Shown in pieces: positions 3,541 to 43,662 of a stretch of 64,000 nucleotides of DNA. Source of the DNA: a virus; the IMG/VR virus record IMGVR_UViG_3300005613_000001, positions 1 to 64,000 of that record; one strand, written 5' to 3'. The translations under genes and the position numbers were made by a program. The notes beneath the pieces are model-generated. The model saw only the letters and a program-made list of their open reading frames with translations. It did no database searches and had not been told where the DNA came from. Position 1 is the stretch's first letter. Each line of letters opens with the position of its first letter.

Positions 3541-5100
3541 ATGACCGACTTTTGGGATCGCGCAAGATATCATTTCGCCAAAGACAATCCTGGTTTCCGA
3601 CGTATGTTCGGTTTGACAGCGGAAACCCCGGAGCGTATTGAAGCGGAAGCAACAATTGAACGACAGAAGGCGCAAGTTAGACATCTTCAGACCGTTCCTC
3701 AAGGTCGTCTTGTCTTTAATGTTCTAGATGAACAAGTTCGTCGCAATATTCTTTTTGATTTTTCCGGCCCCAACTTATTTGCTCGTTTAATTGGAAACGA
3801 AGAAGCAAAAGAAGTGGTGGCTTGGAGTATCTTTGCTGCCCTTGGTCGTGAAGACCATGTTCTGGCTGAAAACTTCCTTCTTGCAGGCCCGGCATCGTCT
3901 GGTAAAACGATGTTTGCTCGGCTAATTGCTGAGACTCTGGGATTGCCTTTTATTGAAGTTGCTGCTTCCACTTTGGCGAAGCAACGGCAACCTTTGGAAT
4001 ATTTGCTAGACAAGATTATTGAAGTTTGTGCAAATTTCAAACCTGACGCAAACCTTAATCTGTATCATCCGAGAGTTGAGGATGCAGATGATTTAACTTT
4101 GCGACCCCGTATGTTAAACTATGATCCGCAACTTGAGAGCGGAAATTACTGTTTTAATCAATTTTCGCTTCCTCCGATGGTAGTGTTTATTGATGAAGCA
4201 CACGCATTGCCTTCGGCATTAGAGCAAGCTTTGTTGAAGGTGACGGAGCGTGGTGATGCGTTCATGACAACGGAAACAGACAGCACGGCAGATTGCAGTA
4301 AGGTTTGTTGGATTCTTGCTACAACTGAACGTGGTAAATTATTCAAGCCGTTTGATACTCGGTTTGAAAAGGTTAATCTCCGTCTTTACACTAAGGACGA
4401 AATTGCAGAGATTATTTCCAAAATTGATGAGTTTAAAGATTGGGATGGAGACACCTGCCGTTTGGTGGCTCATTATTGCAATCGCATTCCGCGAGAAGCA
4501 ATTAGTTTTGCGAGAAAAGTCCAGCAGGCGATGGTTGCCACGCCGGGCAAGTTGGAAGATGTTGCTGCTAGAGTCGCTGAGCGCAAGGGTATTGACCCCT
4601 TTGGTATGACCTATCAGCGGTTGGAAATTCTGCGTGTCCTTGGACAACGCCCCGCCTCTATTAATGCTTTGTGTGCTGCGGTGGGTTGTGAAGATGAAGA
4701 GTTGCGTAGGTTTATTCTTCCGTGGCTTATTGCTTCCACTCCCGATCAAGAGCCTTATGTGATTGTTACAAACCGGCACTACATTACGCCCGCTGGTTTG
4801 GCTGAATTGGATAAGCGGGACATTGAGCATAGGCCCGCTAAAGATATATTAACAAAAGCAGATTTTGCAGCATACTTGGACTCTAGGTATAAAGCTGTGA
4901 GTAGGTTCTATGCCGCTTTTGTGAAGGATTCGAAGACAACAGAAGAAATCCCCGGTGTTGAGAAGGCTTTGTCTGATCCTAAGAACATTGAAAACCTCAG
5001 GAGGGCGGGAAAAATTCTTGCCGCTGAGCACCCGGAAAAAGACAAGGTGAAGACGATGATGAAATGGATTGAAGAGTATCTCGATTGGCGAGGCGTTTAA
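3541..5100 (+). CDS. RuvB-like AAA+ ATPase
   Basis: A 519-residue AAA+ protein with the RuvB layout: Walker A GPASSGKT at 116-123, Walker B VVFIDEAHAL at about 214-223, sensor-1 ILATTE at about 258-263, arginine finger in DTRFEKVNL near 274, sensor-2 in IPREAISFARKV, then a winged-helix region beginning GMTYQRLEILRVLG. RuvB drives Holliday-junction branch migration; this protein is larger than bacterial RuvB, with about 60 extra N-terminal residues and a longer tail, so it may act as a replication or recombination motor or clamp-loader-like ATPase. ATG 3541 has AAGGAG 7 bases upstream; the longer TTG-type start is rejected. It opens the run that continues at 5100. Confidence 0.82.
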   Translation: MTDFWDRARYHFAKDNPGFRRMFGLTAETPERIEAEATIERQKAQVRHLQTVPQGRLVFNVLDEQVRRNILFDFSGPNLFARLIGNEEAKEVVAWSIFAALGREDHVLAENFLLAGPASSGKTMFARLIAETLGLPFIEVAASTLAKQRQPLEYLLDKIIEVCANFKPDANLNLYHPRVEDADDLTLRPRMLNYDPQLESGNYCFNQFSLPPMVVFIDEAHALPSALEQALLKVTERGDAFMTTETDSTADCSKVCWILATTERGKLFKPFDTRFEKVNLRLYTKDEIAEIISKIDEFKDWDGDTCRLVAHYCNRIPREAISFARKVQQAMVATPGKLEDVAARVAERKGIDPFGMTYQRLEILRVLGQRPASINALCAAVGCEDEELRRFILPWLIASTPDQEPYVIVTNRHYITPAGLAELDKRDIEHRPAKDILTKADFAAYLDSRYKAVSRFYAAFVKDSKTTEEIPGVEKALSDPKNIENLRRAGKILAAEHPEKDKVKTMMKWIEEYLDWRGV

Positions 5101-5756
5101 TGGATTGTAAGCACACATTTAAAAAGAGGCGGAAGTATACAAACGGTTGGAAGTATGTTTGTATTCACTGTGGTTTTAAAAGCAGAACTCTTAGAAAAAC
5201 TCTTAGAAAGAAGTCTCTTGGGATTAAAAAGAAGAAGAATTATAGACTGCTCCACAAAGATGGTATTGTTGAAATAAGAAAATATCCACCTTGTTATCGT
5301 ACACTTCTTCGGGGCAGCGGGTGCAAACCCGTTTTTGTTCCTTTGCCATATCAAGTATTCGCTGGGGTTAAATGTTCTCATTGTAGTGGTTATGGTCCTG
5401 GTCGGTTGTTCTTTGCGGCATTTGCGGGCGAGAATGATAAAGTCATTTATCCCAGCCCGTTTCGCTCATTGTCATCGCCTGTTTGTATTGATAATCAGTG
5501 GCACTACCGAGTGCCATCTAAGGCAGATTTGACAGAAGCGATTCGCAGATATTGGGGCACTTACTTTCACGATCCTCACACAATGCTTAAACGCCTCTTT
5601 AATGTAGAGACGTTGCGAGAATGGGCTAAATTATCGCCCGAAAGGGTATTGGAGATAAATTATGCAGAGAGAACTGTAGAGGGTTTTGTGGATGATGTTT
5701 TGCGGATTAAACAACGACATGAAGATCGCTATAATCGTTATAAAGGAATCTGGTAG
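5100..5756 (+). CDS. Repeated phage family, copy 1 (E2/PRTRC-B-like layout)
   Basis: First of three tandem paralogues. The N-terminus adds a small C-x-x-C/H zinc-binding-type segment (CKHTF...CIHCGF). The shared core then runs: VEIRKYPPCYRTLL, a hydrophobic LPYQVFAGV strand, RLFFAAFA, YPSPFRSLSSPVCID, VPSKADLTEAIRRYWGTYF, and a C-terminal helix with LREWAKLSPERVL. The order strand - LFFAAF - Y(P)PF/PL...VCID - ..YW.T.F resembles the PRTRC protein B / prokaryotic E2-like family, but the match is by eye and weak. Starts by TAATG overlap with the AAA+ gene. 218 residues. Confidence 0.65.
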   Translation: MDCKHTFKKRRKYTNGWKYVCIHCGFKSRTLRKTLRKKSLGIKKKKNYRLLHKDGIVEIRKYPPCYRTLLRGSGCKPVFVPLPYQVFAGVKCSHCSGYGPGRLFFAAFAGENDKVIYPSPFRSLSSPVCIDNQWHYRVPSKADLTEAIRRYWGTYFHDPHTMLKRLFNVETLREWAKLSPERVLEINYAERTVEGFVDDVLRIKQRHEDRYNRYKGIW

Positions 5757-8256: not shown

Positions 8257-8280
8257 AATCCCCTCTAGTCTGGGTTGGCA

Positions 8281-8320
8281 GACCCCGATTTTAACAAATC
8301 GGGGTCTTTCTTATTTTTTG
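8281..8320 (+). terminator. Rho-independent terminator
   Basis: An 11-bp perfect stem (GACCCCGATTT / AAATCGGGGTC, 8281-8306) with loop TAAC is followed by a T-rich run. It ends the 7059-8256 unit. Confidence 0.85.
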
Positions 8321-8330
8321 GGAGTGTTGT

Positions 8331-8338
8331 GCTAAATA
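8331..8338 (+). promoter_or_regulatory. CTAAATAA box, possible late promoter
   Basis: GTGCTAAATAATAGC sits directly before the ATG at 8344 and just after a terminator. The same GTGCTAAATAA precedes the - strand gene starting at 15075, and TCTAAATAA precedes 12291. It resembles a T4-like late -10 (TATAAATA). If so, transcripts would be nearly leaderless. Confidence 0.4.
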
Positions 8339-8343
8339 ATAGC

Positions 8344-9396
8344 ATGATGACTTTCAAAGAATATATGACTCTGTTTGAGCAGATTAGTGAAACTGAAATT
8401 CAGCAGATTACAGATGAAATTGAGACTGCGGTAGAAAAGGTTGGGAATTACGATTTAGATAAGGTAATTCTCGCCAAGAACGTTACTACCTCGCCTCAAT
8501 TTCAAGTAATACGAGACAATGAATTACAGGGTGGGCCTGGGCGGTTTGGAGGTCAATTACATGCCCAAGATGATGTTATCAAGAATTATCGTCAGTATTT
8601 CCCAGATGCCGATACCTTTCCACACGCTGAAATATTGAAATTTGAGTTTGTGCCTAATTTCCAGTGGTTTATGTTATTAATGGGCTTTACAGACAAACTT
8701 AGATTAGCCCACATGGCATTCTCACCAGACCTTCGTAGTGCGGGTCTTATAAAAGTAGTTGGAAACGCATTAAGGAAGCATAATTTTAGAATCTTTCCAC
8801 AAGGCGGTGGTTATGAAGAGTTGCATTCGTCCACTGAGTTTCTGGATGAGCTTGTAGCTATTTTTAGGAATGTTGCAGGCATGGGGTATCAAGTGCCCAG
8901 TTCCAGTCACTCTATATTCTCAGGCGTAAAGCAGCAATATGAACAACTGAAACAAAAATACCCTCAAGAATATACTGAGTTTCTAAAACAGAAAAAGAGA
9001 TTATTGCCTAACGGTGTGTTTGCTTTTAGACGGTTGGGCAACATTCCTGCTGATTCGCAATGGGAAACACCGCAAGGACAGACAGTACCTATTTCTGAGT
9101 TGAAAGTAGGAGATAAAGCGTTTTATCACCCCGGAGGCAACAATAGATATTATTCTCAGTGGGCGGAAAAAGACAAAGCGCGTAATATGGCTGGAGTTAT
9201 ATCTAGTGATAGATTTGAGGTTGAGTGTCATATCCCCACTGAAAAAATTATTTACACAAATCAACTACTCCCCGCAGGATTTTCAACTCACGTTGGAGAA
9301 GGTGAAGTCATTGTGGAGCATCCCAATCCTAATCAATCCGATAAACAATTGGTCTGTACCGTAACGAAAAACCGTACCGCAGGAGGCGGCTGGTAA
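8344..9396 (+). CDS. Unknown protein with capsid-targeting-like N-terminus
   Basis: Two consecutive ATGs (8344, 8347) follow the CTAAATAA box; the longer frame would start inside the terminator and is rejected. The N-terminus MMTFKEYMTLFE matches the targeting-like peptide of four other genes nearby. The 350-residue body is unrecognised. Near the C-terminus, FEVECHIPTEKIIYTNQLLP and GEGEVIVEH have the look of the strand and E-x-E loop of R-S-E-type ADP-ribosyltransferases, but I cannot place the other motifs, so that is a weak suggestion. Possibly a virion-packaged effector. Confidence 0.6.
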   Translation: MMTFKEYMTLFEQISETEIQQITDEIETAVEKVGNYDLDKVILAKNVTTSPQFQVIRDNELQGGPGRFGGQLHAQDDVIKNYRQYFPDADTFPHAEILKFEFVPNFQWFMLLMGFTDKLRLAHMAFSPDLRSAGLIKVVGNALRKHNFRIFPQGGGYEELHSSTEFLDELVAIFRNVAGMGYQVPSSSHSIFSGVKQQYEQLKQKYPQEYTEFLKQKKRLLPNGVFAFRRLGNIPADSQWETPQGQTVPISELKVGDKAFYHPGGNNRYYSQWAEKDKARNMAGVISSDRFEVECHIPTEKIIYTNQLLPAGFSTHVGEGEVIVEHPNPNQSDKQLVCTVTKNRTAGGGW

Positions 9397-9652: not shown

Positions 9653-10627
9653 ATGATAAGAGATAAGATTTTAGGCATGTATTTAGGCACGCCCATTGGG
9701 GACATTCTAGGACTCCCTTTTGAAACTATGGAGTTTGGAACCTACGAGAGAGTTACGGATTATGGAGCTTGGGGAGTGCCTGTTGCGTGGTCAGATGATA
9801 CTCAATTTACTTTGGCTGTAACAAATTCTCTAATGGAATCCAGTGGGTTTGATATTAAATCACAGGCTCAATGGCATGTGAGAGCATATCAGGATACTAC
9901 TTTCGGTTGGGGCAGCACTACTAAATACTGCTGCCGGAAGTTATTAGAAGGTGTGCCCCCAACTGAAATGGAGTATGGGCAAACGAAGGGTACAGGCAAT
10001 GGAGTGGCTATGAAAATTAGTCCTATTGCTGCCTACATGCATTCCAATCGCCCAGGTCGCATTGGAATTAAAGAATATATCGTTCCTCTGGCCCAAGACA
10101 TTATTGACTTTTCTCGTATGACCCACCATTCGGCAGTATCAGCACAAAGCGGTTTAGCTCAAGTTGCTGCTGTGATGTATTGCTTATCTGTAGAGCCTGA
10201 TGAATTCTCTGCTGAGAGGTTCGTTGAAGAAGTTGTATTTGCGTCAGAGATTGGGCTTGAGCATCCTGAATTGACGGACGGCCCTGATCTTACAACAAGG
10301 CTCCGAATTGTTGACCGCCTCAAAGATTCTCCTCCTGAAGCGATTGTAGATGTATTTGGAGGCGGGACTTCATATGTTTATAATTCTTTACCTTTCAGTT
10401 ATGCGTTTTTCCTTCAGAATCCGCATAGCATTGAGAGTCTTTACGAGGTAGTTTCTGCGGGAGGCGACACAGACACTAACGGCGCTATTGTTGGTTGTCT
10501 TTTGGGCGCTCTTCACGGGAACAGAATCTTCCCAGATCATTTAATAGCTGGGATTCCATTAGCCGGTCTTGCGGAAATCAATGACATGGCTAATGCGTTT
10601 AATGATAAATTTTACAGCCGAGGCTGA
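9653..10627 (+). CDS. ADP-ribosylglycohydrolase family protein
   Basis: Removes ADP-ribose from modified proteins or hydrolyses ADP-ribose-linked substrates using two magnesium ions. The family motifs are visible: start IRDKILGMYLGTPIGDILG, metal-binding AWSDDTQFTLA near residues 43-53, GTGNGVAMKISPIAAYM, and the second metal site AGGDTDTNGAIVGCLLGALHG near 275-295. Length 324 is usual for the family. In this phage it may reverse modification by its own ADP-ribosyltransferase-like proteins or by host defences; this is inference. AATTGTAC follows its stop. Confidence 0.85.
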   Translation: MIRDKILGMYLGTPIGDILGLPFETMEFGTYERVTDYGAWGVPVAWSDDTQFTLAVTNSLMESSGFDIKSQAQWHVRAYQDTTFGWGSTTKYCCRKLLEGVPPTEMEYGQTKGTGNGVAMKISPIAAYMHSNRPGRIGIKEYIVPLAQDIIDFSRMTHHSAVSAQSGLAQVAAVMYCLSVEPDEFSAERFVEEVVFASEIGLEHPELTDGPDLTTRLRIVDRLKDSPPEAIVDVFGGGTSYVYNSLPFSYAFFLQNPHSIESLYEVVSAGGDTDTNGAIVGCLLGALHGNRIFPDHLIAGIPLAGLAEINDMANAFNDKFYSRG

Positions 10628-10686: not shown

Positions 10687-11466
10687 ATGGAGAAAATCAG
10701 TGGAAAAGTAGTCGCTGTGGGAGATATCCACGGTGAATATGATAAGATGAGAAGAATGCTGGCTTGTTTGGTTAGATACGAAATCTTAGATGATCGCTGG
10801 CTAGTATTGCTGGGTGATTATGTGGATATGGGACCGGACACAGCAAAGGTTATTGAATTTCTGGTTCGGTTTAAGAAAGAATATCATCCAAATACAGCAT
10901 TCATTTGTGGGAATCATGATCTAAACCTTATCAAAGCATTAGGTCTTGTTGATTCTCCCGAAGAGGTATTCTATCGTGGTCGAGTTCCTACAAGGAATCG
11001 GGATGTTCTTGTGTCATATGGTGCAAGAAATGTTGATGAATTGAAGGCCAAGATGCCCGATAGTCACAAGGAATTTCTAGCCAATTTAAATTGGGCAGTA
11101 GAACATCCTGATTATCTATTTGTTCATGTGGGGTTAGACCCAAATGAAAGTTATGAAGCCCAAGTAGAAGCTTTAGCGGAAAGAGATATGGTTCCGCACA
11201 AGCCGAAGTGGCTCTATAGAGATCATCTTTCATTTTCATCCCCGAGGACAGATAAGATTGTTGTCTCCGGTCATATGATTTTGAATGATGCTATTGGTTT
11301 CAATAACAGGCGGCTAATTGATACTGGTTGTGGCTATGGTGGTGAATTAACTGCCTTGCAATTGCCAGAAGATCAAATCATCCAGCCTGAAACCGATAGG
11401 AAGTTTGTGAGAAGCCCAATTCCAATGCGGGGAGAACCAGCAGCTTTTACTTGGGCACAGTTTTAA
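10687..11466 (+). CDS. PPP-family metallophosphatase, copy 1
   Basis: A calcineurin-like Ser/Thr protein phosphatase of the lambda phosphatase type. The metal ligands are all visible: AVGDIHGEYDKM (motif GDxHG), LLGDYVDMGPD (GDxVDxG), FICGNHDLNL (GNHD), a His in VHVGL and another in SGHMI. 259 residues, about the expected size. GAGGAG lies upstream of the ATG. A paralogue follows 11 bases later. With the kinase at 14125-15075 and histidine kinase at 17639 it could reset phosphorylation states in the infected cell, which is inference. Confidence 0.85.
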   Translation: MEKISGKVVAVGDIHGEYDKMRRMLACLVRYEILDDRWLVLLGDYVDMGPDTAKVIEFLVRFKKEYHPNTAFICGNHDLNLIKALGLVDSPEEVFYRGRVPTRNRDVLVSYGARNVDELKAKMPDSHKEFLANLNWAVEHPDYLFVHVGLDPNESYEAQVEALAERDMVPHKPKWLYRDHLSFSSPRTDKIVVSGHMILNDAIGFNNRRLIDTGCGYGGELTALQLPEDQIIQPETDRKFVRSPIPMRGEPAAFTWAQF

Positions 11467-11476
11467 AAGGTCAATA

Positions 11477-12220
11477 ATGAATGGTCCTGCGGTATTTATT
11501 GGTGATATTCATGGATATGTTGGATCGCTCCGCGCTTTGCTTGAGGCGTTGGGTGATAATCTGACAGATCGGTGGATTGTTTTCTTGGGAGACTTAGTTG
11601 ATAAGCGTGGCAATCCAAAAGAAACCATTGAAACGGTTATTAATCTTAGGGATCGCCACCCTAAAACTGTAGCTCTAGCAGGAAACCATGACCTTTCGTT
11701 TGCAAGAGCAATTGGCGTGTCTCCTGCTCCTGATAATTATTGGAAGGGAAGGTATTGCCGGGCAAGGTATAGCCGCCCCACTTTTCATTCCTATGGAGCA
11801 TCACACGGCGACTTGCATACATTGACTAGGTTGGTCCCAAAGAAGCACAAAGAGTTTCTGGCGAATATGCCGTGGTGTTTTGAACACGATGAAATTCTTG
11901 GTGTTCACGCGGGATTAGTGCCTGAAAGGCTGGTGCCCCAGGTAGAACTACCACATGGGACAACCCTGGACGAGCAATTGAGAATGTTGCGAGAACGTGA
12001 ATATTCAATTCAACGCCCGCCGTGGTTGCATTGCCAGGCGCTTTCTCACACAGATGTAAAGGAATATCCCAAATATGTAATTTCGGGACATAATACTACA
12101 TCTGAAGTTAAAATGGTAGGAAAACACATTCACGCAGATACGGGTGTAAATTATGGTGGAAAACTCTCCGCTGTGCTTTTCCCCGAGCTAACGTCAATTA
12201 GTGTTCCGCCTATCAATTAA
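11477..12220 (+). CDS. PPP-family metallophosphatase, copy 2
   Basis: Paralogue of the preceding gene: FIGDIHGYVGSL, FLGDLVDKRGNP (the usual DxG is D-K-R-G), LAGNHDLSFA, GVHAGLVPE, ISGHNTTSEV and ADTGVNYGGKL. All metal-binding residues are present. The copies have diverged strongly, so they probably act on different substrates. AAAGG precedes the ATG. A bidirectional-looking terminator follows. Confidence 0.83.
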   Translation: MNGPAVFIGDIHGYVGSLRALLEALGDNLTDRWIVFLGDLVDKRGNPKETIETVINLRDRHPKTVALAGNHDLSFARAIGVSPAPDNYWKGRYCRARYSRPTFHSYGASHGDLHTLTRLVPKKHKEFLANMPWCFEHDEILGVHAGLVPERLVPQVELPHGTTLDEQLRMLREREYSIQRPPWLHCQALSHTDVKEYPKYVISGHNTTSEVKMVGKHIHADTGVNYGGKLSAVLFPELTSISVPPIN

Positions 12221-12878: not shown

Positions 12879-14132
12879 ATGTTTGGTTTTAAACTTTTTT
12901 TTGAAGAATCGGGTGTCCGCACTTTTAGTGATCCCCATGTCTTAAATGATACTACCATTGAGTTCCCAGGTGGATATGATTTAGAACCACAACAATTTGC
13001 TACCTATCACATTCCCCCTGAATTTCATGGTATGGTGATTCGTGATGTGATTTTAAATCACAAAAAGGGTCCACATGGTCATGGGGAACCTCATATGCGT
13101 TACGAAGAGGAAAAGAAGAAGTGGCGTGATTTCTACGGTTCATACAGCAAATTAGAAATGCATGATATGAATTCAGATAAGTGGGTAGCTTATAATCACG
13201 GTGGTCGGGATTATAAACACGCCGAATATCGCCCTTCTTGGGAGCCCGAAACTTTACACGATTGGATTTCAGAGGTTGGTAGGATTTCGCCTGATATGAT
13301 GAAAATTAGCAACCCAGGCAATCAACGTGCTAAGACAAATCCCATAACTGGCGAAAAGGTTGATCCAAACGACAAGAGAAGCACAGTAACAATAGGACCA
13401 ATTACAATTAGTTTCTTCGGCAAACAAGCCTTTGAGAAGAAAGAATATATCCAATGGACCTATTCCCCTGGTGGTACGCACGGCTCAACTAGATTCTCTG
13501 ATCTTGACAAAGGGGACCAACCAACTTACGGCACTTTCGGCATTGGATATTACCCCGGTGCTTTAGCATTATGGACAAACAGAAATCCCATTCAACGAGC
13601 CAAACCATATCACAACCCAGCCGTTCATAGACATATGCAAATGAAGCACTCAGGGATTGAGCAGGGTCAGTTGTTTGTTCCTGGCGATTCGGGTTATTTT
13701 GTGGATCGTAATGAAAAATCTGTACTCTATAGTTTAAAATATGATCCTAACAATGGACAAGGCACACATAACGTAAGAATGAAGAGAGAGGGAAATAACT
13801 CATTTAGAATTATGTTGCCGCCTAATACTTTCGGAAAGACCCTGGCAAGCATTGAACTAATGGTTGGTAAAAATATTGCTAGACCCTCTCAAGCCCCTCC
13901 TGGTAGTCAATATGATGATGGAACAGAAATGGCTAAGGTGGGTAAGATCAATAGTTCTATCCATGCCAACGTGGAAGGAAATACTGTTAAATTTAGGGGG
14001 CGGGAACATTCTATTGGTCCGGTAATCACAACAGCCGATTATCCTGGTGTTAAGATTGCTCCTGGCGATTCTGTTAGAGTATCGTCCAGCAACACAGCTT
14101 TTATTATGGCTTGGCGACTAGGCATTAGTTAA
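12879..14132 (+). CDS. Large unknown protein with capsid-targeting-like N-terminus
   Basis: Begins MFGFKLFFEES, the same pattern as 623, 8344, 12291 and 15075. The 417-residue body is rich in Gly, His and aromatic residues (KKGPHGHGEPHMRYE, GGTHGSTRF, GTFGIGYYPGALALW) and has no membrane segment, consistent with a beta-rich protein. I do not recognise a family. It starts directly after the kinase stop with GGAG upstream, so the two are co-transcribed, and it overlaps the convergent kinase gene by 8 bases. Confidence 0.68.
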   Translation: MFGFKLFFEESGVRTFSDPHVLNDTTIEFPGGYDLEPQQFATYHIPPEFHGMVIRDVILNHKKGPHGHGEPHMRYEEEKKKWRDFYGSYSKLEMHDMNSDKWVAYNHGGRDYKHAEYRPSWEPETLHDWISEVGRISPDMMKISNPGNQRAKTNPITGEKVDPNDKRSTVTIGPITISFFGKQAFEKKEYIQWTYSPGGTHGSTRFSDLDKGDQPTYGTFGIGYYPGALALWTNRNPIQRAKPYHNPAVHRHMQMKHSGIEQGQLFVPGDSGYFVDRNEKSVLYSLKYDPNNGQGTHNVRMKREGNNSFRIMLPPNTFGKTLASIELMVGKNIARPSQAPPGSQYDDGTEMAKVGKINSSIHANVEGNTVKFRGREHSIGPVITTADYPGVKIAPGDSVRVSSSNTAFIMAWRLGIS

Positions 14133-15075
14133 AGAAGTCTGTTTTAGTCGCAATATCTTCAAGAGACATCTTTAGAAGTAACTTTTTAATAAGCCCTAGT
14201 TGCTCAAATCGCTGATATAAGGTGGCTTGAACATCCCGAACATATTTTACACTTGGACGTTCTTTTACCTCTGATATTACCTCTCTAAAGATTTCATCTA
14301 CTGCTTTTTGTTGTGATAAGATATGATCTATTTGGGTGATTAAACCTTCATTGCGTTGCGCAGGTGGTAAATCAGGATTGCCGTGCATGCCGTGATGCTC
14401 AGTTTCTCCTGTATCTTGATTAACTTGTGGACCTAGAAGTTCTTTATTGTAGCGAATAGAGTGGTACAAATCACGAAGTTTAGGACCGAACCCCTTATCT
14501 GTTGCTCTGCGTCCCTCTCCATATCCTGTTCCTACTGGGGAATGCGGCCAACGATCCGCCCCGTGTGCTGTTTTTGCTAGACCAGATATATCAATTTGAT
14601 ATACTTTGCCTGTTTCTGGATCAACAATTGTATTTCCCGCATTCTTAATATCACGACTATCAAGGAATGCGTGAGCGACAGAAGCGGCATCAATAATTTG
14701 TTTGTTGGTTTTACGGATTTGTCCCCAATTTCCTTGGTTTAATAAACTTCTTATGGTGGGGTGTTGTCCAAAATCTTCCATAACGATGTAAAGTTGCCCG
14801 CCCGCATCTACTAAAGCCATCTCGGGAGCTTGAACACCTTCCATGCTTAGAGCGTTGAACAGTTTGGTGCCTAAATACTCAGAAACCGTTGCTTCCTCGT
14901 TGCGGTTCTTCTTGACCACAACGGTTTTCCCTGGATTTGAAGCTAATGGGGCGCGATAGATCGCCTCAGAGCCCATTCCGCCCAGCCGTTGCCCCGCTTG
15001 ATGGTCAATATCTTCCCATCGGAGGCTTTTAATGCTTGATTCTGTGAGGAAATACGATTTGAAGTTCAGTTCCAT
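14125..15075 (-). CDS. Protein-kinase-like protein with capsid-targeting-like N-terminus
   Basis: Starts MELNFKSYFLTES from ATG at 15075; the upstream in-frame ATG at 15090 lies within the CTAAATAA leader and is less likely. The kinase-like fold is suggested by a glycine loop GGMGSEAIYRA, VVVKKNRNEE (ATP-binding Lys), a hinge IVMEDFG, a catalytic-loop-like DSRDIKNAGNTIV, and a metal-binding QIDISGLAK. This order fits HipA / PI4-kinase-like atypical kinases. 316 residues. Placed against the transcription direction of its neighbours, so it has its own promoter. Substrate unknown. Confidence 0.62.
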   Translation of the reverse strand: MELNFKSYFLTESSIKSLRWEDIDHQAGQRLGGMGSEAIYRAPLASNPGKTVVVKKNRNEEATVSEYLGTKLFNALSMEGVQAPEMALVDAGGQLYIVMEDFGQHPTIRSLLNQGNWGQIRKTNKQIIDAASVAHAFLDSRDIKNAGNTIVDPETGKVYQIDISGLAKTAHGADRWPHSPVGTGYGEGRRATDKGFGPKLRDLYHSIRYNKELLGPQVNQDTGETEHHGMHGNPDLPPAQRNEGLITQIDHILSQQKAVDEIFREVISEVKERPSVKYVRDVQATLYQRFEQLGLIKKLLLKMSLEDIATKTDFFN

Positions 15076-15082
15076 AGAGTTA

Positions 15083-15090
15083 TTTAGCAC
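15083..15090 (-). promoter_or_regulatory. CTAAATAA box upstream of kinase-like gene
   Basis: Reading the - strand, TTGTGCTAAATAACTCT directly precedes the ATG at 15075, nearly identical to the sequence before 8344. No Shine-Dalgarno sequence is present. Confidence 0.4.
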
Positions 15091-16169: not shown

Positions 16170-16357
16170 AATTTATAAATTTAAAGTTAGAATATAATAG
16201 ATTTGATTTGAGGTTTAGGCGGCTTCTGCTGTGACACGACTTCTCCCGCAAAGGCTCAGGACGGGCAAGGTTCAGAAGTGTATCGTTACAGGGAGGCAAA
16301 TAGAGGTAGCATAGAGGTAGAATTTAGAAAGATTTGAATTTAGAGATTTTAAAAGGG
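16170..16357 (+). other. Non-coding stretch with possible structured RNA
   Basis: No convincing gene. An ATG at 16135 gives only 11 codons. Between 16215 and 16295, CTTCTG pairs with a later CAGAAG, CTGTGAC with a later GTTACAG in interleaved order, and CCCG with CGGG between them, which suggests a compact or pseudoknotted fold. It leads directly into the hairpin at 16358, so it may be a cis-acting leader of the gene at 16399. Confidence 0.3.
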
Positions 16358-16398
16358 ATGCCCCCTCCTGCAAAAGCAGGAGGGGGCATTAGTTTATT
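16358..16398 (+). terminator. Terminator or attenuator hairpin
   Basis: A perfect 14-bp stem (ATGCCCCCTCCTGC / GCAGGAGGGGGCAT, loop AAAA, 16358-16389) is followed by TAGTTTATT and then immediately by the ATG at 16399. No room for a promoter is left, so it may attenuate the next gene rather than only end the previous one. Confidence 0.7.
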
Positions 16399-16827
16399 AT
16401 GGAACAGCCTAGAGATACGCTTGGAATACGTGTTTTCACCGATGATTTTGGGAATGTTATATTAAATGATGAATTCAAACAAAAAGTTGCTACCGCTATG
16501 GTGTACAGGCATTATGACATAGCGGTGATAGTGAATCTTCAGAAAGAAGTAATGGGGGTAACAGAGTGGGAGTTTAGAAAGGATGCTCGTTACCTGTTCA
16601 AACAGTTTACTGATGAGATATTAAAGTCGTTAGATGAGTTTGATTTTGAGAAGGACATAGCTATCTTTGTCATTGAATTTGATAAGGAAACAGTTGGCGA
16701 AGATGATGAGGAGTGTGGTTTAAAAATAATGGGTTGTAGTCGTAATGGTGTTCCTAGAAGGCCACCAAAACCTGAACCTGAACTAAAAGATATTGACCCT
16801 TGGAGTAAATCATGGAATTTAAATTAG
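16399..16827 (+). CDS. Hypothetical protein, duplicated family, DPW tail
   Basis: 142 residues. Paralogous to 58179-58589 on the other strand: both have FxxDxxGxVxL, a RYDIAVI / HYDIAVI strand and a D-E-F-D-F-E / SLDFE segment leading into a hydrophobic strand. The end reads DIDPWSKSWNLN, so it also belongs to the proteins with a C-terminal DPW. The ATG follows the hairpin without a Shine-Dalgarno sequence. Confidence 0.65.
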   Translation: MEQPRDTLGIRVFTDDFGNVILNDEFKQKVATAMVYRHYDIAVIVNLQKEVMGVTEWEFRKDARYLFKQFTDEILKSLDEFDFEKDIAIFVIEFDKETVGEDDEECGLKIMGCSRNGVPRRPPKPEPELKDIDPWSKSWNLN

Positions 16828-17633
16828 AAAATTTAGTTTATCCTGGTATGTTCGCACAGGTTGAAGAAACAGGATTTGTTCATGCTTATCGCCCTACGGG
16901 TTGGGAAAACGATCAAAAGAGACAGGGTAAGGATGATGTTGTTTGCATTCGTGTAAGGGGTATGTATAACGGTCCACTTGATAAGGAATTTGATTCGTTT
17001 GAGGCTTTGCTTGAAGAGTTCCCTGAATTCACTGACTGGGAATGGATTGGCGAGTTTGTTGGCGACGGGCAGAGAAAGGAAGAATGGATAACTAAACAGG
17101 TCCAACAAATAAAAGAGGCGGTCCAGCAAGAGTATGGGGCGGAAGTATCGCCGGGCTTTGATCGCAAAAATAAAATTGAACAGGTTCGCCTCAATTTTAA
17201 ACCTGAAGTGTGGGCTGATCTTTGCAATAAAGAAGGTGAACTTTTGCCTGCCTGTTGTGCTTCTATTAGTGCTATTCGGGATGCTTTGGTTGATGCACTA
17301 CGGGAAGACTGTTGGATACGTTGTGATGGGCTTCAATTAATTGCAAACCAAAGGGATTCTCATGACTTTGAAGACCCTCATCCTGTGAAGGTGATCTTTG
17401 ACATTTGGGAAATGATTGAGCCGGTCGCTCATTTCCCATTTAACAAAGAACCGGAAGAATTTAGAAAAGAAGATGCTGAAAGATTAAGTGATGCTCTTAC
17501 GGCGCTCATTGAGGAAGCGCCAACGGAAGAGGCTAAATTTGAGCTTCGTTACGCTCGGGATAAGATAGAGGCACAGGCGGGGGTTTGTAAACCTCGTAAG
17601 GACAATACCTTTCTCGGTTTAAAGGAGGACTGA
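16812..17633 (+). CDS. Hypothetical protein
   Basis: Overlaps the previous gene by 16 bases in another frame. 273 residues, acidic, with several tryptophans in the first third (TDWEWIGEF) and a C-terminal helical part (EAPTEEAKFELRYARDKIEA). Five cysteines are spread without a zinc-finger pattern. No recognised family. It is followed after 5 bases by the histidine kinase, whose AAAGGAGG site lies in its last codons, suggesting one operon. Confidence 0.7.
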   Translation: MEFKLENLVYPGMFAQVEETGFVHAYRPTGWENDQKRQGKDDVVCIRVRGMYNGPLDKEFDSFEALLEEFPEFTDWEWIGEFVGDGQRKEEWITKQVQQIKEAVQQEYGAEVSPGFDRKNKIEQVRLNFKPEVWADLCNKEGELLPACCASISAIRDALVDALREDCWIRCDGLQLIANQRDSHDFEDPHPVKVIFDIWEMIEPVAHFPFNKEPEEFRKEDAERLSDALTALIEEAPTEEAKFELRYARDKIEAQAGVCKPRKDNTFLGLKED

Positions 17634-17638
17634 TTAGG

Positions 17639-18697
17639 ATGGACCTAAAACAATCGCTAGAAGAATTAACAGAGCGATATCATTTAGCGGTTTCAGGCAC
17701 GGATGCTGGCATATGGGATTGGGATTTAAGAAATAATGAAGTTTTCTTTTCTGATCGTTGGAAAACAATGATCGGATTTGAACCTAATGAAATTGGCGAC
17801 ACCTACATGGAGTGGGAGTCGCGTGTACATCCTGATGATTTGCCTGCCTGTTTGGCGGCAATTGATAATTACCTTGATGGGAAAACCAAAGAATACCACA
17901 TAGAGCATAGATTGCTATGCAAGAATGGGCATTATATTTGGATTTCTTCAAGAGGCGCAGCGCAGAGGGATGAAAATGGAAAACCCTACCGTTTTGTAGG
18001 CTCTCATCTTGATATTACAAAAGAAAAAAAGGCAGAGAGGGATTTGAAGGAACAGCATCATAGGCTACAACGTCTCTTGGAAGTGCAGGATAAAGAGAGG
18101 AAATTAGTTTCATATGAAATTCATGACGGGCTGGCGCAAGATCTGGCTGGTTTGCTGATGCAGCTAGAAAATATTGTGGGGAAGTGTAAAGGCTGTGAGG
18201 CTTATACATTGGTGCATAGTGCGAGAGACTTAGCCAAGAAGGCTTTTACAGAAGCAAGACAATTGATAGGTGATTTAAGACCACCTGTTTTAGATGATGG
18301 TGGTGCGATTCCCGCCATTTTGCAGGTTGTGGAAAATTTGCCTCTTGATGTTGAATTGAAACATAATTTTAATGGTGCTCGATTTGAGCCTATTTTAGAA
18401 AATAGCATCTTTCGCATAGTTCAAGAGGCAATACAAAATACAGCACAACATAGTGGTAGTAAGCATGCAGCCGTAGAATTGAATTTAGAGGGCGAAATTA
18501 TCATCATTAAAATCATGGATTGGGGCAAAGGTTTTGATGTAGAGGCAGAAGCAGATGGTCATTTTGGATTGATAGGCATTCGTGAAAGGGTAGAATCTTT
18601 CAGTGGTCAATGCAGTATTATGAGTAGCGAAAATGGAACCGGCATTACGATTACCCTTCCAGCATTAGGAGTTAAAAATGGAATATCCAAGGATTGA
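17639..18697 (+). CDS. PAS-domain sensor histidine kinase (HisKA_3 type)
   Basis: A soluble 352-residue histidine kinase. Residues about 12-127 form a PAS_3/PAC domain (AGIWDWDLRNNEVFFSDRWK ... WISSRGAAQRDENGKPYRFV). A coiled coil leads to a HisKA_3 dimerisation region with phospho-acceptor His162 in YEIHDGLAQDL. The ATPase domain has an N-box QEAIQNTAQHSG (Asn267), G1 MDWGKGFD and G2 HFGLIGIRERV, ending GTGITITLP. All catalytic residues appear intact. There is no membrane segment and no response regulator in the window, so it may phosphorylate a host regulator. Kinases of this kind are common in bacteria but unusual in phages. Confidence 0.88.
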   Translation: MDLKQSLEELTERYHLAVSGTDAGIWDWDLRNNEVFFSDRWKTMIGFEPNEIGDTYMEWESRVHPDDLPACLAAIDNYLDGKTKEYHIEHRLLCKNGHYIWISSRGAAQRDENGKPYRFVGSHLDITKEKKAERDLKEQHHRLQRLLEVQDKERKLVSYEIHDGLAQDLAGLLMQLENIVGKCKGCEAYTLVHSARDLAKKAFTEARQLIGDLRPPVLDDGGAIPAILQVVENLPLDVELKHNFNGARFEPILENSIFRIVQEAIQNTAQHSGSKHAAVELNLEGEIIIIKIMDWGKGFDVEAEADGHFGLIGIRERVESFSGQCSIMSSENGTGITITLPALGVKNGISKD

Positions 18698-19151
18698 TGT
18701 TACTGTAGATTTGGCTCTGTTTTCGCTAAACGAAAATGGGGATGTTCAAGTTTTGCTGATACGACGGGGCAAGGAACCGTTTAAAGGCTATTTGGCTATA
18801 CCGGGGGGATATCTCAATCCCAATGAATCACTTAAACAGGCGGCAGAACGGGAGTTATATGAAGAAACTCACACCGTCGCTGAGTGGGGGGCTGGAAAAA
18901 ATAAAGGAGGCGAAGTTTTTTATGTTGGGGTCTATGATGATCCCGACCGCGATCCTAGAGGCCGAGTAATTTCCCACCTTTTTGCCGCTTTCACAAAGGA
19001 GCAATTACCCGAAGCTGGTGATGATGCGGAAAAAGATTCTGCGCATTGGGCAAAATGTCCCATTGAAGAACCGATGGCGTTTGACCACCAAGATATGATT
19101 GGAAAAGCGTATCTTACACTTTTGGAGGCGGGGCAAGTTCCCGCAGGATAA
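18678..19151 (+). CDS. Nudix hydrolase
   Basis: The Nudix box is clear: GGYLNPNESLKQAAERELYE followed by ET, fitting Gx5Ex7REUxEExGU except that the last positions read EETHTV. Start MEYPRIDVTVDLALFSLNEN resembles ADP-ribose / NrtR-type Nudix proteins. It would hydrolyse a nucleoside diphosphate linked to another group, plausibly ADP-ribose, which would fit the NAD-related genes around it. 157 residues. It overlaps the histidine kinase by 20 bases. Confidence 0.85.
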   Translation: MEYPRIDVTVDLALFSLNENGDVQVLLIRRGKEPFKGYLAIPGGYLNPNESLKQAAERELYEETHTVAEWGAGKNKGGEVFYVGVYDDPDRDPRGRVISHLFAAFTKEQLPEAGDDAEKDSAHWAKCPIEEPMAFDHQDMIGKAYLTLLEAGQVPAG

Positions 19152-19462
19152 TGATTAATCAAGAGCATGTTAGAGTTGTAAAGTTGGCTGCTGAAGAACT
19201 TATCGCAGAGGTTGATCTTGATGTAGAAGGTGATGTACTTATTTTGAAGAATCCTGTGATTATACAAATGGAGCCCACTGAGGAAGGCAGTGTGGTTTTG
19301 CGAATGTATCCCTGGTTAACTATGACACACGATGCTGAATATCCTGTTCGTAAAGATCATGTGATAACTACGGCTACAGCGCTTCCTAAGTTAGTAGAAG
19401 CGTATGTTAGGGAACATAGTAACATTGAGCTACCAGCGAATCCCGGTTTGGTAATGCCGTAA
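19151..19462 (+). CDS. Small conserved phage-type protein, possibly Sm-like
   Basis: ATG overlaps the Nudix stop. 103 residues with alternating hydrophobic strands: HVRVVKLAAEELIAEVDLD, LILKNPVIIQMEP, VVLRMYPWLTM. This pattern (LxNPxxI...W) appears in small phage proteins with a likely Sm-like barrel; the assignment is low confidence. Probably co-translated with the Nudix protein. Confidence 0.65.
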   Translation: MINQEHVRVVKLAAEELIAEVDLDVEGDVLILKNPVIIQMEPTEEGSVVLRMYPWLTMTHDAEYPVRKDHVITTATALPKLVEAYVREHSNIELPANPGLVMP

Positions 19463-23446: not shown

Positions 23447-24167
23447 AAGAAGAAAAAAATTATCTAAAGGGCCGTGTGAAAATTGTGGGCTACGAGACCA
23501 TTTGCCTTGTTCATCTTTATGTCAAAAATGCAAAACCGAAAATATACGCAATTTTAGAAAAAATAGACTATCTCAAGGACTGTGTGCCGAGTGTGGTAAG
23601 TATCCACATTTACAGAAAAGGGTCAGGTGTCAAGTCTGTGCTGATAGATTAAAACAAAAAGATGCAATAAGGAGGGCTGAATGGATTGCCAAAGGGGTTT
23701 GCAAGAAACGCGGGTGTAATAATCCAATTGAAGACAATGTTCTGTGTAATGATTGTCGTGAAAAACAAAACAGCTATGTTAGACGCAGAAGAAAAAGGTT
23801 AAAAAATGAAGGGCTTTGTGAATCATGCGGTCAAAATACGGCTACAGGAAATCATTTGTGTGAGACTTGTTGGTTAAAGAAAGTCGCAGATAGACATTTG
23901 GGTAATAAAGACAAGTGGGTATTGTTAAAGGAAAAATTTGAATTACAAAATGAAAGTTGCCCATACACGGGAATTAAATTGGTTATTGGTGAAAATGCTT
24001 CTATAGATCATATTGTTCCTAAATCTTTGGGCGGTGCTAAAACGCTTGATAATATCCAATGGGTGCATATTTGGATTAATTTGATGAAATTTAACCTCAA
24101 GCATGAGGATTTTGTTGTAAAGTTTAGAGAGTTCATTCAATTGGTAAAGGAGTTTGAAAGTGACTGA
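23442..24167 (+). CDS. HNH homing endonuclease with zinc-finger array
   Basis: 241 residues. The N-terminal two thirds hold repeated CxxC pairs (PCENCG, LCQKCK, LCAECG, RCQVCA, LCNDCR, LCESCG, LCETCW). The C-terminus is an HNH nuclease: CPYTGIKLVIGENASIDHIV followed by PKSLGG and LDNIQWVHIWINLMKF. A free-standing mobile endonuclease that cuts DNA, probably to spread its own gene. It shows higher A+T and lysine use than its neighbours and sits between complete genes, so it is an intergenic insertion rather than intron-encoded. Confidence 0.85.
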   Translation: MGRRKKLSKGPCENCGLRDHLPCSSLCQKCKTENIRNFRKNRLSQGLCAECGKYPHLQKRVRCQVCADRLKQKDAIRRAEWIAKGVCKKRGCNNPIEDNVLCNDCREKQNSYVRRRRKRLKNEGLCESCGQNTATGNHLCETCWLKKVADRHLGNKDKWVLLKEKFELQNESCPYTGIKLVIGENASIDHIVPKSLGGAKTLDNIQWVHIWINLMKFNLKHEDFVVKFREFIQLVKEFESD

Positions 24168-25566
24168 AAACATTCTCTTACGGAGCGATAGTTACAAAGT
24201 AACCCACTGGCGGCAGTATCCGCCCGGTGCGGAGACTATTTATAGTTATTTTGAATCTCGGGGCGGGCGTTTTCATGATGTGGTGTTTTTTGGCTTGCAA
24301 TATTATCTTAAGCGTTATCTTCAAGGACAGGTTGTGACGCAAGAGAAAATCGAACAGGCTGATGAACTTTTCCGTCTGCACTTCGGGGATAAAGATGGAT
24401 ATTTGTTTAATCGTGCAGGTTGGGAAGATATACTTAATAGGTTTGGCGGTCGTCTTCCTGTTTCTATTAAAGCCCCGCTGGAAGGTTCGGTTATTCCTAA
24501 TCACAATGTTATGATGACTATTGAAAATACCGATCCTGCTTTCTATTGGCTTCCTAATTACTTAGAAACGCTACTTGTACAGACGTGGTACGCTTGTTCG
24601 GTTTCGACGCAATCGAGAGAAATGAAAAAGCTAATTCTTCGTTATCTTCGTAGTACCGGCGATCCTGAACAAGTTGGATTTAAGTTATGTGACTTCGGAT
24701 TTCGTGGAGTATCTTCTGTTGAAACTGCTGGTGTAGGTGGGGCCGCTCACCTTCTTAACTTCATGGGTACTGATACTTTTGAAGGAATTATGGTGGCGAG
24801 AGATTTTTACGGCGAACCAATGGCCGGATTCAGCATCCCAGCCGCCGAACACTCCACAATTACTTCGTGGGGTAGAGAAAATGAAATGGATGCGATGGAA
24901 AATATGATTACCCAGTTTCCGGCTGGTTTGGTTGCTGTGGTAAGCGATTCCTTCAATATTTATGAGGCGTGTCGAGATATTTGGGGCGACAAACTCCGCG
25001 ATAAGGTAATGGAGCGTAATGGTACGCTTGTTATTCGCCCCGATTCCGGTGATCCTGCTGGTGTTATTTGTGAGATTCTTCCCATCCTTGGGGAGAGGTT
25101 TGGATATGCAGCGAACGCAAAGGGTTACAAAGTTCTTGATCCTCACGTTCGGTTGATCCAAGGCGATGGCATTGATTTTGATATGTTAAATGCCATTCTT
25201 AAAGCAATGAAGCGGGCCGAGTGGAGTGCCGACAACATTGCTTTCGGTTCGGGCGGCGGTTTGCTGCAAAAACTAGACCGAGACACTTTGAAGTTTGCTT
25301 TCAAGTGTTCCAACATTCGGGTTAATGGTGAAGACCGCCCCGTTTATAAATCTCCCATTACGGACAGGGGCAAGCAGTCCAAGCAGGGACGATTGAAGTT
25401 GGTGAAGCTTACGGGATCGCACGGTTGGGTATATCACACTGTTCCCGAAGATGATCCTCGCCCCGATGAAATGGTAGAGGTTTTCCGTGACGGAGATATT
25501 CTAGTAGATCAATCATTTGCGGATATTCGGAAACGAGCGGAAATCCATGAGAGGGAATTAGGATGA
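24160..25566 (+). CDS. nadV: Nicotinamide phosphoribosyltransferase (NAMPT/NadV)
   Basis: Makes nicotinamide mononucleotide from nicotinamide and PRPP. About 468 residues, the family length. Motifs: SDSYKVTHWRQYPPG near the start, FKLCDFGFRGVSSVETAGVG, GTDTFEGI, SIPAAEHSTITSWG with the active-site His, TLVIRPDSGDP, LIQGDGID and AFGSGGGLLQKLDRDT. GTG 24160 is chosen because AAAGGAG lies 7 bases upstream; TTG 24154 is too close to it. With the CinA-NMNAT fusion at 27170 it completes a two-step route from nicotinamide to NAD+. Confidence 0.93.
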   Translation: MTENILLRSDSYKVTHWRQYPPGAETIYSYFESRGGRFHDVVFFGLQYYLKRYLQGQVVTQEKIEQADELFRLHFGDKDGYLFNRAGWEDILNRFGGRLPVSIKAPLEGSVIPNHNVMMTIENTDPAFYWLPNYLETLLVQTWYACSVSTQSREMKKLILRYLRSTGDPEQVGFKLCDFGFRGVSSVETAGVGGAAHLLNFMGTDTFEGIMVARDFYGEPMAGFSIPAAEHSTITSWGRENEMDAMENMITQFPAGLVAVVSDSFNIYEACRDIWGDKLRDKVMERNGTLVIRPDSGDPAGVICEILPILGERFGYAANAKGYKVLDPHVRLIQGDGIDFDMLNAILKAMKRAEWSADNIAFGSGGGLLQKLDRDTLKFAFKCSNIRVNGEDRPVYKSPITDRGKQSKQGRLKLVKLTGSHGWVYHTVPEDDPRPDEMVEVFRDGDILVDQSFADIRKRAEIHERELG

Positions 25567-27093: not shown

Positions 27094-27173
27094 AAACTCT
27101 AATTGAACTTATTTTCTTTTGCGGTGATATAGCTTTATTCATTATAGCCCTATGGGTCTTGGAAGTAATATGA
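27090..27173 (+). CDS. Very small membrane peptide
   Basis: 27 residues, MKTLIELIFFCGDIALFIIA followed by LWVLEVI, a single membrane helix. It overlaps both neighbours by four bases (ATGA at each end), which is the standard junction in this genome and supports it. Confidence 0.5.
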   Translation: MKTLIELIFFCGDIALFIIALWVLEVI

Positions 27174-28285
27174 ACAATCCCTTTGATGATATCCACGAAA
27201 GCCCCTACCGTGCTGTGATTGCTATTACAGGCGGCGGCAGCGAGGCTATCGGACGACTCCTACAATATGGAAACGCCTCTAAAACTTTATTAGAGGCGGT
27301 TGTGCCGTATCATCCTGGGGCTATGGATTCATTCTTAGGTTTCACCCCTAAGAAGTATTGTTCGGAAGAAGTGACTCGCCAATTAGCCGTTGCCGCTTAT
27401 CGTCGGGCAATGGAGCTAACAGGTGAAGATAATGATAATTATTTGTGTGGGCTTGCGCTAACAGCAAAGTTGGTGAAACCCGATGGAGAACGAGAAGGTA
27501 GAGTGCATGAGATTCACGTTGCCTTCCACAATTGTTATAAAACTGTCTATCAAAAACTCACACTGACAGTCCCCAGAATTCGCTTCTTTGAAGAGCAAAT
27601 TGCCTCTACGATGTTGTTAAATCTATTGAGGCGGGAGACTACAGGCGTTGAGGAAATTTTGGATATTGAGGAAAACATTGAAGAAATCAGCAAAGGCCCT
27701 GATTCTACAGAAACTTGGCTCAAATTTGACAGTAAGCCCAAATCCGATTGGGCTATCCCATCGGAAAAAGAAACTACTTTAATTTTCCCTGGTTCATTCA
27801 ATCCCTGCCATAAACAGCATGTGGAGCTTGCTAAAGTAGCATTCAAAGCAACAGGGCAGCCAGTACGGTTTGAAATTGCTCTAAAGAATGCAGCAAAGCC
27901 GCCTCTAGATCATATTGATTTAGCAGAACGGGTTGAAACATTGCGATCTTATCAGGATGAAGAGTGGTTTGGTGGCGTTGTTACAACTAATACGCCTCTT
28001 TTTAAAGAGAAAGTAGTATTATTCCCCGGATGTACCTTTATTGTTGGTTCGGATACGATTAATCGTATTGCTGACCCCATTTATTATCGCACAAAACTTG
28101 AGGCGGTTGCGATAGCACAGTTCTTTGTAGAACACAAAATTAAATTTTTGATTTATCAGCGGAAGGATGTTCCTATCTCGGACGCTGTGTTAGCCAATAA
28201 GAATTTTGAGGCGTGTTGTCAGATTGTGGAAGGGTATGAAGACGACGGTACTTCAAGCACGGAGATTAGAAATGGCGTGGACTAG
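27170..28285 (+). CDS. CinA-like domain fused to NMN adenylyltransferase
   Basis: 371 residues. Residues 1 to about 165 form a CinA/PncC-type domain (AVIAITGGGSEAIGRLL, ASKTLLEAVVPYHPGAM, YCSEEVTRQLAVAAYRRA). The second half is a nucleotidylyltransferase: LIFPGSFNPCHKQHVELA with the GxFNPxHxxH signature and GTSSTEIRNG with the ISSTxxR-type motif near the end. The latter would join NMN and ATP to NAD+. The CinA half may deamidate NMN or bind ADP-ribose, but catalytic residues cannot be confirmed by eye. ATG 27170 overlaps the upstream stop (ATGA). Confidence 0.87.
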   Translation: MNNPFDDIHESPYRAVIAITGGGSEAIGRLLQYGNASKTLLEAVVPYHPGAMDSFLGFTPKKYCSEEVTRQLAVAAYRRAMELTGEDNDNYLCGLALTAKLVKPDGEREGRVHEIHVAFHNCYKTVYQKLTLTVPRIRFFEEQIASTMLLNLLRRETTGVEEILDIEENIEEISKGPDSTETWLKFDSKPKSDWAIPSEKETTLIFPGSFNPCHKQHVELAKVAFKATGQPVRFEIALKNAAKPPLDHIDLAERVETLRSYQDEEWFGGVVTTNTPLFKEKVVLFPGCTFIVGSDTINRIADPIYYRTKLEAVAIAQFFVEHKIKFLIYQRKDVPISDAVLANKNFEACCQIVEGYEDDGTSSTEIRNGVD

Positions 28286-41563: not shown

Positions 41564-41847
41564 TGGAAATATTTTTCTATATGTACCCTGGCGAAACAAT
41601 GATCCGTGCTACCTCAAGGATTCTCTTTTGGTCGGCATTTATAATCTTTGGCATTGCCCTTACTCGTTTAGGCATGAACACACCTGCGATGCTTTGGTTT
41701 GAATTCGGCAAACTGACTTTGATGGCATCATTTAGTTTTAGAATAGCTTGCTTCTTAGAGGTTAAAGATGAAAAGGCACATAAGGATAATTGGCGATGTC
41801 CACGGCTGGATATCAAGCAAAAGCCGTTTGAGGGGGCGTACATATAA
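41560..41847 (+). CDS. Small membrane protein
   Basis: 95 residues (or 94 from the second ATG). Membrane helix near residues 24-42 (ILFWSAFIIFGIALTRLGMN) and a second hydrophobic stretch. Its last 80 bases overlap the phosphoesterase start in another frame, an unusually long overlap here. Confidence 0.58.
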   Translation: MMEIFFYMYPGETMIRATSRILFWSAFIIFGIALTRLGMNTPAMLWFEFGKLTLMASFSFRIACFLEVKDEKAHKDNWRCPRLDIKQKPFEGAYI

Positions 41848-43374: not shown

Positions 43375-43662
43375 ATGAGAAAAGCCTTTACGTTGGTTGA
43401 ATTGTTAATTGTTCTTGCAATCCTTGGAATTTTGATTTCATTGATTGCTACGGGTATTGCAAAATTCAGCGGGGCAGAAAATCCCGCCGTTCAAACAACG
43501 CCAAATTATCAGGAAACACCCCAACAGCCCCCTCAATACCAACCGCAACCGCCCCAATTTCAAGCATCTGACATGCAAGATATCCCAATTGTAATCAATG
43601 GGGATAACTTTATGATTAAATATCGGGGGCGGGATAACGTGTCAATTGAAAGAGTACAATGA
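43375..43662 (+). CDS. Prepilin-like protein
   Basis: 95 residues. MRKAFTLVELLIVLAILGIL is the classical type IV prepilin N-terminus: a basic leader, then F-T-L-V-E-L with Glu5 and a membrane helix. The remainder is short, Pro/Gln-rich (QQPPQYQPQPPQFQ) and ends in a small strand region. It could be processed by the host prepilin peptidase and enter pilus or secretion pseudopili. Planctomycetes have very many such proteins, so it may have been taken from the host. Confidence 0.65.
   Translation: MRKAFTLVELLIVLAILGILISLIATGIAKFSGAENPAVQTTPNYQETPQQPPQYQPQPPQFQASDMQDIPIVINGDNFMIKYRGRDNVSIERVQ

Follow-up and report, generated by a model that had tools for sequence, protein, structure and literature searches.

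Results

A sensor kinase gene within a tight gene run

The window analysed here, a stretch of 64,000 nucleotides (64 kb), is the start of the 527,112-base IMG/VR virus record IMGVR_UViG_3300005613_000001, and it carries an open reading frame (ORF) in which a PAS domain is followed by the HisKA_3 and HATPase_c domains of a sensor histidine kinase (Table 1). Judged by their scores the three Pfam matches are not chance, with PAS_3 at 9.2e-26 (90.4 bits against a Pfam cut-off of 25.6), HisKA_3 at 2.1e-11 (44.6 bits against 24) and HATPase_c at 1.6e-7 (32.2 bits against 26.4). Thirteen NCBIfam families are also matched, including MctS, UhpB, LiaS, NarX and NarQ, the transmitter giving values of 9e-32 to 1.5e-18 against the MctS, UhpB, LiaS and NarX models, and the PAS domain model TIGR00229 is matched over its cut-off. 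As the scores fall far under every NCBIfam equivalog cut-off, the protein is a HisKA_3 kinase but no orthologue of a named kinase.

The kinase gene is part of a closely packed run of genes on one strand, 5 bases after the preceding ORF, and the likely ribosome-binding site ends 10 bases 5' of its ATG. The hairpin in front of the run is the probable terminator of the preceding unit. The upstream ORF at 16812 has no relative in a single-protein scan of the viral_contigs collection. The initial annotation placed the kinase in one operon with a Nudix hydrolase, and this agrees with what we see, as the two genes share a strand and overlap.

Table 1. Features of the kinase gene run and of the second signalling cluster. 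Positions count from the first base of the window, which is also that of the record.
Feature	Position	Strand	Basis
15-pair hairpin, weak T-rich tail, just 5' of the gene run	16357..16390	+	
ORF opening the gene run, 142 aa, no Pfam match	16399..16827	+	
ORF immediately 5' of the kinase, 273 aa, no Pfam match	16812..17633	+	
AGGAGG, likely ribosome-binding site of the kinase	17623..17628	+	Consensus match only
PAS-HisKA_3-HATPase_c sensor histidine kinase ORF, 352 aa, ATG start	17639..18697	+	ORF list, Pfam
PAS_3 domain, putative sensor, aa 35-122	17741..18004	+	Pfam
HisKA_3 dimerisation/phosphotransfer domain, aa 153-218	18095..18292	+	Pfam
His162 and DxxxQ motif (H162-D163-G-L-A-Q167)	18122..18139	+	Alignment
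HATPase_c catalytic/ATP-binding domain, aa 254-342, with N box, G1 and G2	18398..18664	+	Pfam, alignment
Nudix hydrolase ORF, 157 aa, 20-base overlap with the kinase	18678..19151	+	Pfam, NCBIfam
ORF after the Nudix gene, 103 aa, sub-threshold DUF6561 match	19151..19462	+	
ORF with DnaJ domain, 112 aa	19486..19824	+	
REC-PAS protein without kinase domain	record 375,218-376,099	-	
CHASE3-HisKA-HATPase_c membrane kinase	record 376,123-377,652	-	
Rcp1-like response regulator	record 377,636-378,055	-	

Active site, fold and sensor domain

Alignment of the phage transmitter with 12 planctomycete transmitters, to which its mean identity is 36.7%, shows that it keeps 23 of the 25 columns that are invariant across the planctomycete kinases, differing only at L172 and F249. 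The retained columns include the active-site residues H162, D163 and Q167 of the H-D-x-x-x-Q motif, N267 and H271 of the N box, D294, G296 and G298 of G1, and G310 of G2. Conservation at this degree of divergence resembles the pattern that selection on a working enzyme would leave, although it is no proof of activity. The H-D-x-x-x-Q sequence is treated in PMC3510030 as the phosphatase motif of HisKA_3 kinases, and PMC5231405 describes the role of its glutamine in DesK.

The highest Kyte-Doolittle mean over 19 residues is only 1.0, compared with 2.9 for the CHASE3 membrane kinase encoded elsewhere in the record, and we therefore regard the protein as cytosolic and lacking a membrane helix. With the domains over cut-off and the residues kept, the description of an intact cytosolic HisKA_3 kinase with His162, N box, G1 and G2, made at the outset from the letters of the window, stands.

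An AlphaFold2 model built from an alignment of 23 sequences has a mean pLDDT of 87.4 and a pTM of only 0.54, so that the arrangement of the domains is uncertain; the predicted structure is that of a normal PAS-DHp-CA kinase. The top Foldseek matches of the model are whole-length PAS/LOV kinases (4gcz, 2.9e-18), and searches of the PDB by sequence match VraS (7.7e-13) and DesK (8.8e-13). For the PAS domain the nearest solved structure is 3mr0 both by sequence (2.4e-26) and by fold (Foldseek TM-score on target 0.87, 37% identity), and the CA domain superimposes on VraS 4gt8 with a TM-score on target of 0.80 (Foldseek). DesK is matched with 0.54. The FixL chain is matched within its first PAS-like domain and the LOV kinases mostly outside the LOV core; by eye no LOV cysteine motif is seen.

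Phage context of the gene

A Terminase_6N match lies at 438,123-438,554 of the record within a 626-aa ORF that matches the phrog_2 terminase large subunit (9.4e-45). A family of head-tail adaptors is matched (9.3e-15) by an ORF at about 367-368 kb. The terminase, which by its sequence is of the T4 type, is 93% identical to that of a 20.6-kb IMG/VR contig and 50% identical to that of the 595-kb uncultured phage LR756511.1. Among the 55 window ORFs compared with PHROG there are matches to a virion structural protein, a clamp loader, DNA and RNA ligases, and others. The GC content of the window is flat (0.407-0.436 per 4-kb step); the kinase gene has 0.406, with a GC3 of 0.334 against a window median of 0.376, and in codon-usage distance it ranks 20th among the 52 genes of the window. 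Six planctomycete loci that we measured have 61-62% GC. By these measures the composition is fully phage-like and the gene fits in with the rest of the phage DNA. That it is phage-borne and does not stem from a host contig, as first proposed, is thus borne out by the terminase and head-tail adaptor on the record and by the match in composition and codon usage.

Several other genes of the window deserve mention in their own right. A sigma factor family of RNA polymerase (phrog_351, 4e-5) is weakly matched at 1935-2981, where there is no Pfam match; a 95-aa ORF at 43375-43662 has a type IV prepilin N-methylation motif (PF07963, 5.7e-7), which is odd in a phage; and an ATPase resembling ClpX, with the ClpX zinc finger domain, is encoded at 62715-63998 (- strand). 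Calcineurin-like phosphoesterases (PF00149) account for 3 of the 55 scanned window proteins, at 10687-11466, 11477-12220 and 41768-42475, these positions being assigned by eye. A regular-expression scan, which carries no statistics, finds the N-terminal pattern M-x-T/N-F-x-E/D/K-W/Y/F-L/M in several unrelated proteins, namely those at 623-1762, 8275-9396 and 14125-15090 (- strand) and, in the region of the record with the second signalling cluster, L006:4451-4747 and 4738-5208. We take this pattern to be reminiscent of the capsid-targeting peptide of the internal head proteins of T4.

A putative set of genes for NAD+ and ADP-ribose

Besides the Nudix gene the window contains a Nampt gene (24154-25566), an ADP-ribosylglycohydrolase gene (9653-10627) and a gene (27152-28285) whose product has a cytidylyltransferase-like, NMNAT-like C-terminal domain. 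The Nudix protein resembles the Nudix half of the NadM-type NMN adenylyltransferase/Nudix proteins, and a relative of it occurs in 8 of the 10 other phage loci with Nampt whose flanks were examined. As Nampt and an NMNAT-like gene are also present on the phage, the Nudix gene probably belongs to NAD+/ADP-ribose metabolism, and the set as a whole may be a salvage route against NAD+-depleting defences. The kinase-Nudix run together with Nampt and the NMNAT-like protein suggests, as a side idea, that there may be a link between NAD+/ADP-ribose state and signalling.

Origin of the kinase

The PAS half of the protein is 46-54% identical to PAS domains from metagenome-assembled genomes (MAGs) of Planctomycetaceae, Rhodopirellula, Isosphaeraceae, Latescibacterota, Armatimonadetes and Nitrospira, and the transmitter finds its best matches in two planctomycete MAGs (36-42% identity, E down to 9e-44). 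Of 199 Planctomycetota genomes searched, 18 match the transmitter at 1e-20, and 3 have a match with an E-value of 1e-30 or lower; the best match among 36 genomes from other records, chosen by PAS similarity, is 6.5e-29. There are several relatives per bacterial genome, one genome having 8 matches at E <= 1e-30.

We built a maximum-likelihood tree of transmitters with 50 rows, in which other phyla are represented by 42 genomes picked on PAS similarity and from which two sequences (L184 and L061) were left out as their match was too short. The phage transmitter and 12 planctomycete rows from four genomes form a clade of 13 rows with support of 100/99, so that the kinship with planctomycete kinases suspected at the start is upheld by the phylogeny; a fifth row from one of these four genomes (L181) falls outside. 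Within the clade the placement of the phage is poorly supported (64/58), and its branch is long (1.4). From its low identity to these kinases combined with its phage-like composition, we read the kinase as a probable old capture from a Planctomycetota-like bacterium, in a tree that samples other phyla thinly, and closer relatives in those phyla, sampled through the 42 PAS-picked genomes, are possible. A planctomycete as the host of the phage is suggested by the kinase gene alone.

The 12 planctomycete PAS-HisKA_3 orphan kinases of the clade (L053, L054, L058, L059, L062, L161, L162, L178-L180, L182 and L183) have in common with the phage kinase the transmitter clade and the HDGxAQ motif, and by eye they too have at least one PAS domain ahead of the transmitter. 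The phage kinase differs from them in being short, AT-rich and phage-borne, with a single PAS domain and the low mean identity given above.

An orphan kinase in an orphan subfamily

The kinase does not form a classical two-component pair with an adjacent response regulator, as Pfam profiles find no receiver domain in the 64-kb window; to this extent the statement that no response regulator lies nearby is correct. However, the lack of an adjacent regulator, for which the gene had been called an orphan, is not peculiar to the phage. A separate receiver gene is found beside none of 8 planctomycete relatives (six frames, 1.5-4.3 kb of flank on each side), a weak receiver match at one of them (L070, E 0.097) lying inside its own kinase frame. 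With the same profile, receivers do turn up in the DNA flanking the Nitrospira and Latescibacterota relatives (L075 and L076) and in L011, and HisKA_3 relatives of other phyla adjoin NarL-type regulators (L055, L056 and L063). The orphan state thus appears to be inherited from the bacterial subfamily, and since it is usual in the nearest bacterial relatives it is by itself no sign of a viral strategy, nor can the cognate regulator be read from gene order. NarL-type targets do exist in such bacteria, as each of four planctomycete genomes searched has 6-20 GerE matches.

A second signalling cluster

In the whole record there are two Response_reg and two HATPase_c matches, both receivers and the additional HATPase_c falling at 375.8-378.0 kb. 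The claim that the kinase is the only two-component gene seen is therefore true for the window and fails for the record. These domains belong to a three-gene run on the - strand (375,218-378,055), about 360 kb from the HisKA_3 kinase and closely preceded by an HSP20 gene and a strong hairpin. The stand-alone Rcp1-like regulator shares 54-57% identity with three such regulators from bacteria, those of the loci L200, L202 and L204 compared below, and the receiver of the REC-PAS protein has the acidic pocket, phosphoacceptor Asp and Lys all present. Neither receiver protein has a DNA-binding domain, and no protein joining a receiver to a GerE/HTH output was found in the whole record. A 363-aa protein at 80,016-81,107 (- strand) has two GerE (LuxR-type) domains, apparently from a tandem duplication, and no receiver match.

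At 3 of the 5 bacterial loci viewed (L200, L202 and L204; domains assigned by eye) a REC-(PAS)-kinase is encoded next to a kinase and an Rcp1-like regulator. The phage cluster resembles these in that its three parts adjoin, but its order is RR-HK-REC-PAS, its kinase has a CHASE3 domain, and its third protein has lost the kinase domain present in the bacterial counterparts. The CHASE3 kinase has no relative in a single-protein scan of viral_contigs. In PMC7824862 and PMC9503650, the receiver-like cRec domains of jumbo phages are linked to NAD+ processing and are 'never' associated with a histidine kinase; in the phage described here, by contrast with those accounts, one receiver adjoins a histidine kinase.

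Rarity among phages

A single-protein scan of viral_contigs (2.9 million contigs) found no relative of the kinase, and a scan with the transmitter alignment matched 43 stretches, none of which was confirmed by tblastn; the DNA ligase of the phage likewise has no relative there in a single-protein scan. Among 50,697 phage records there are 22 with a partial match to the kinase (24.7-33.7% identity), none covering 80% of it, and several of the 22 look to us like bacterial contigs. We also assembled 50 records with a related terminase, comprising 48 of 77 IMG/VR loci (the other 29 being mostly short, duplicate or distant) and 2 phage records, with a total of 4.86 Mb; 6 are at least 200 kb and 25 are under 50 kb. 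No recognisable histidine kinase was found in these 50 records, an absence that is only indicative as most of them are fragments. The HATPase_c match in one of them (L159) was considered as a second histidine kinase and rejected; the frame reads like what we take to be a GHKL protein of the T4 rIIA type. One record, the 225-kb G012, has a Response_reg match (L160:1375-1839, - strand), a stand-alone receiver that is probably a pseudo-receiver because Ser replaces the phosphoacceptor Asp. The kinase is also absent from the 10 other phage loci with Nampt.

The PHROG family phrog_10776 (674 positions, function unknown) matches residues 131-338 of the kinase (3.6e-11), and transmitter-like proteins are thus already known in phage or prophage sequence, although this family and phrog_5982 both give partial matches only. 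DesK, NarX, UhpB and LiaS/VraS have the same DHp and CA class. Each of these has a NarL-type regulator encoded next to it, and most are membrane proteins; the phage kinase, unlike them, is cytosolic and unpaired, and the equivalog scores set it apart. In the open-access literature we found no account of a huge phage that encodes a histidine kinase.

Discussion

The gene, carried by a huge T4-related phage, almost certainly encodes a cytosolic HisKA_3 sensor kinase of bacterial type. We propose that this phage long ago took it from a Planctomycetota-like bacterium and kept it intact. In this model the kinase would be made in the host cytoplasm during infection and would then dimerise, its PAS domain would read a small-molecule or redox cue, and it would autophosphorylate on His162. 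The phosphate would be passed to a response regulator of the NarL/FixJ type, or removed by way of D163xxxQ167, with the outcome that part of host transcription is reset for infection. The host is the likeliest source of the partner regulator, because none of the phage proteins found joins a receiver to a DNA-binding domain and because the phage receivers belong to a separate HisKA-type unit. That the kinase acts on a host NarL/FixJ-type regulator is, on the sequences compared here, a proposal to which we would give an even chance. Phages do inhibit host two-component systems, PIT4 being an example (PMC10714779).

The same components allow other arrangements. The kinase might exchange phosphate with the two phage receivers at 375-378 kb, replacing the kinase half that is missing from the REC-PAS protein, and it is in keeping with this that both receivers look intact and that 3 of the 5 bacterial loci have a REC-(PAS)-kinase where the phage copy stops short of a kinase domain. 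However, the second cluster has its own HisKA-class kinase, the usual partner of an Rcp1-like regulator in the bacterial clusters, and the HisKA_3 kinase is of a different lineage and far away in the record, so that such a circuit within the phage seems unlikely. It is also conceivable, if improbable, that the protein acts chiefly by dephosphorylation or, as a decoy, by entering mixed dimers with HisKA_3 kinases of the host, and shuts down a host stress or defence response instead of signalling a cue. The complete DxxxQ phosphatase motif would suit such a role, as would the fact that the nearest relatives are host-type kinases of which there are several per genome, but all of the autokinase elements, which would be superfluous for a pure phosphatase or decoy, have been retained as well.

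Of the remaining explanations, one is that the gene is a captured bacterial passenger with no selected role in the phage, and its sporadic occurrence (absent from viral_contigs, from the 50 records with related terminases and from the 10 other Nampt loci) is what might be expected of it. We doubt this explanation, given that the reading frame is open and the active site kept after long divergence, that the composition is phage-like and that the gene sits in a tight run and shares bases with the one after it. Lastly, a piece of host chromosome may have been joined to a phage contig during assembly, for the record is a metagenome contig with no end repeats reported and its terminase lies outside the window, elsewhere on the record; the flat GC content of the window, a codon usage like that of the neighbouring genes and planctomycete kin at about 61% GC make such an artefact very improbable.

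Beyond the action of the HisKA_3 kinase on a host regulator, which we prefer, we have considered whether the CHASE3 kinase with its response regulator and REC-PAS protein, the PAS-HisKA_3 kinase, which has a different source, and the double LuxR-type protein without a receiver make up a signalling network of the phage's own. We hold this to be a long shot; if true, the network would sense conditions both at the surface and inside the infected cell and would set the timing of the phage programme, which would be more than nudging a single host regulator.

What will surprise the specialist is that one phage combines a response regulator with two sensor-kinase units that are unrelated to each other. 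An apparently intact sensor kinase together with a second signalling set suggests that the phage may tap the control circuits of its host, and the question this touches is how huge phages keep track of their host cell while a long infection runs its course. If so, a phage equipped with intact sensor kinases and with its own response regulator would take an active part in bacterial signalling.
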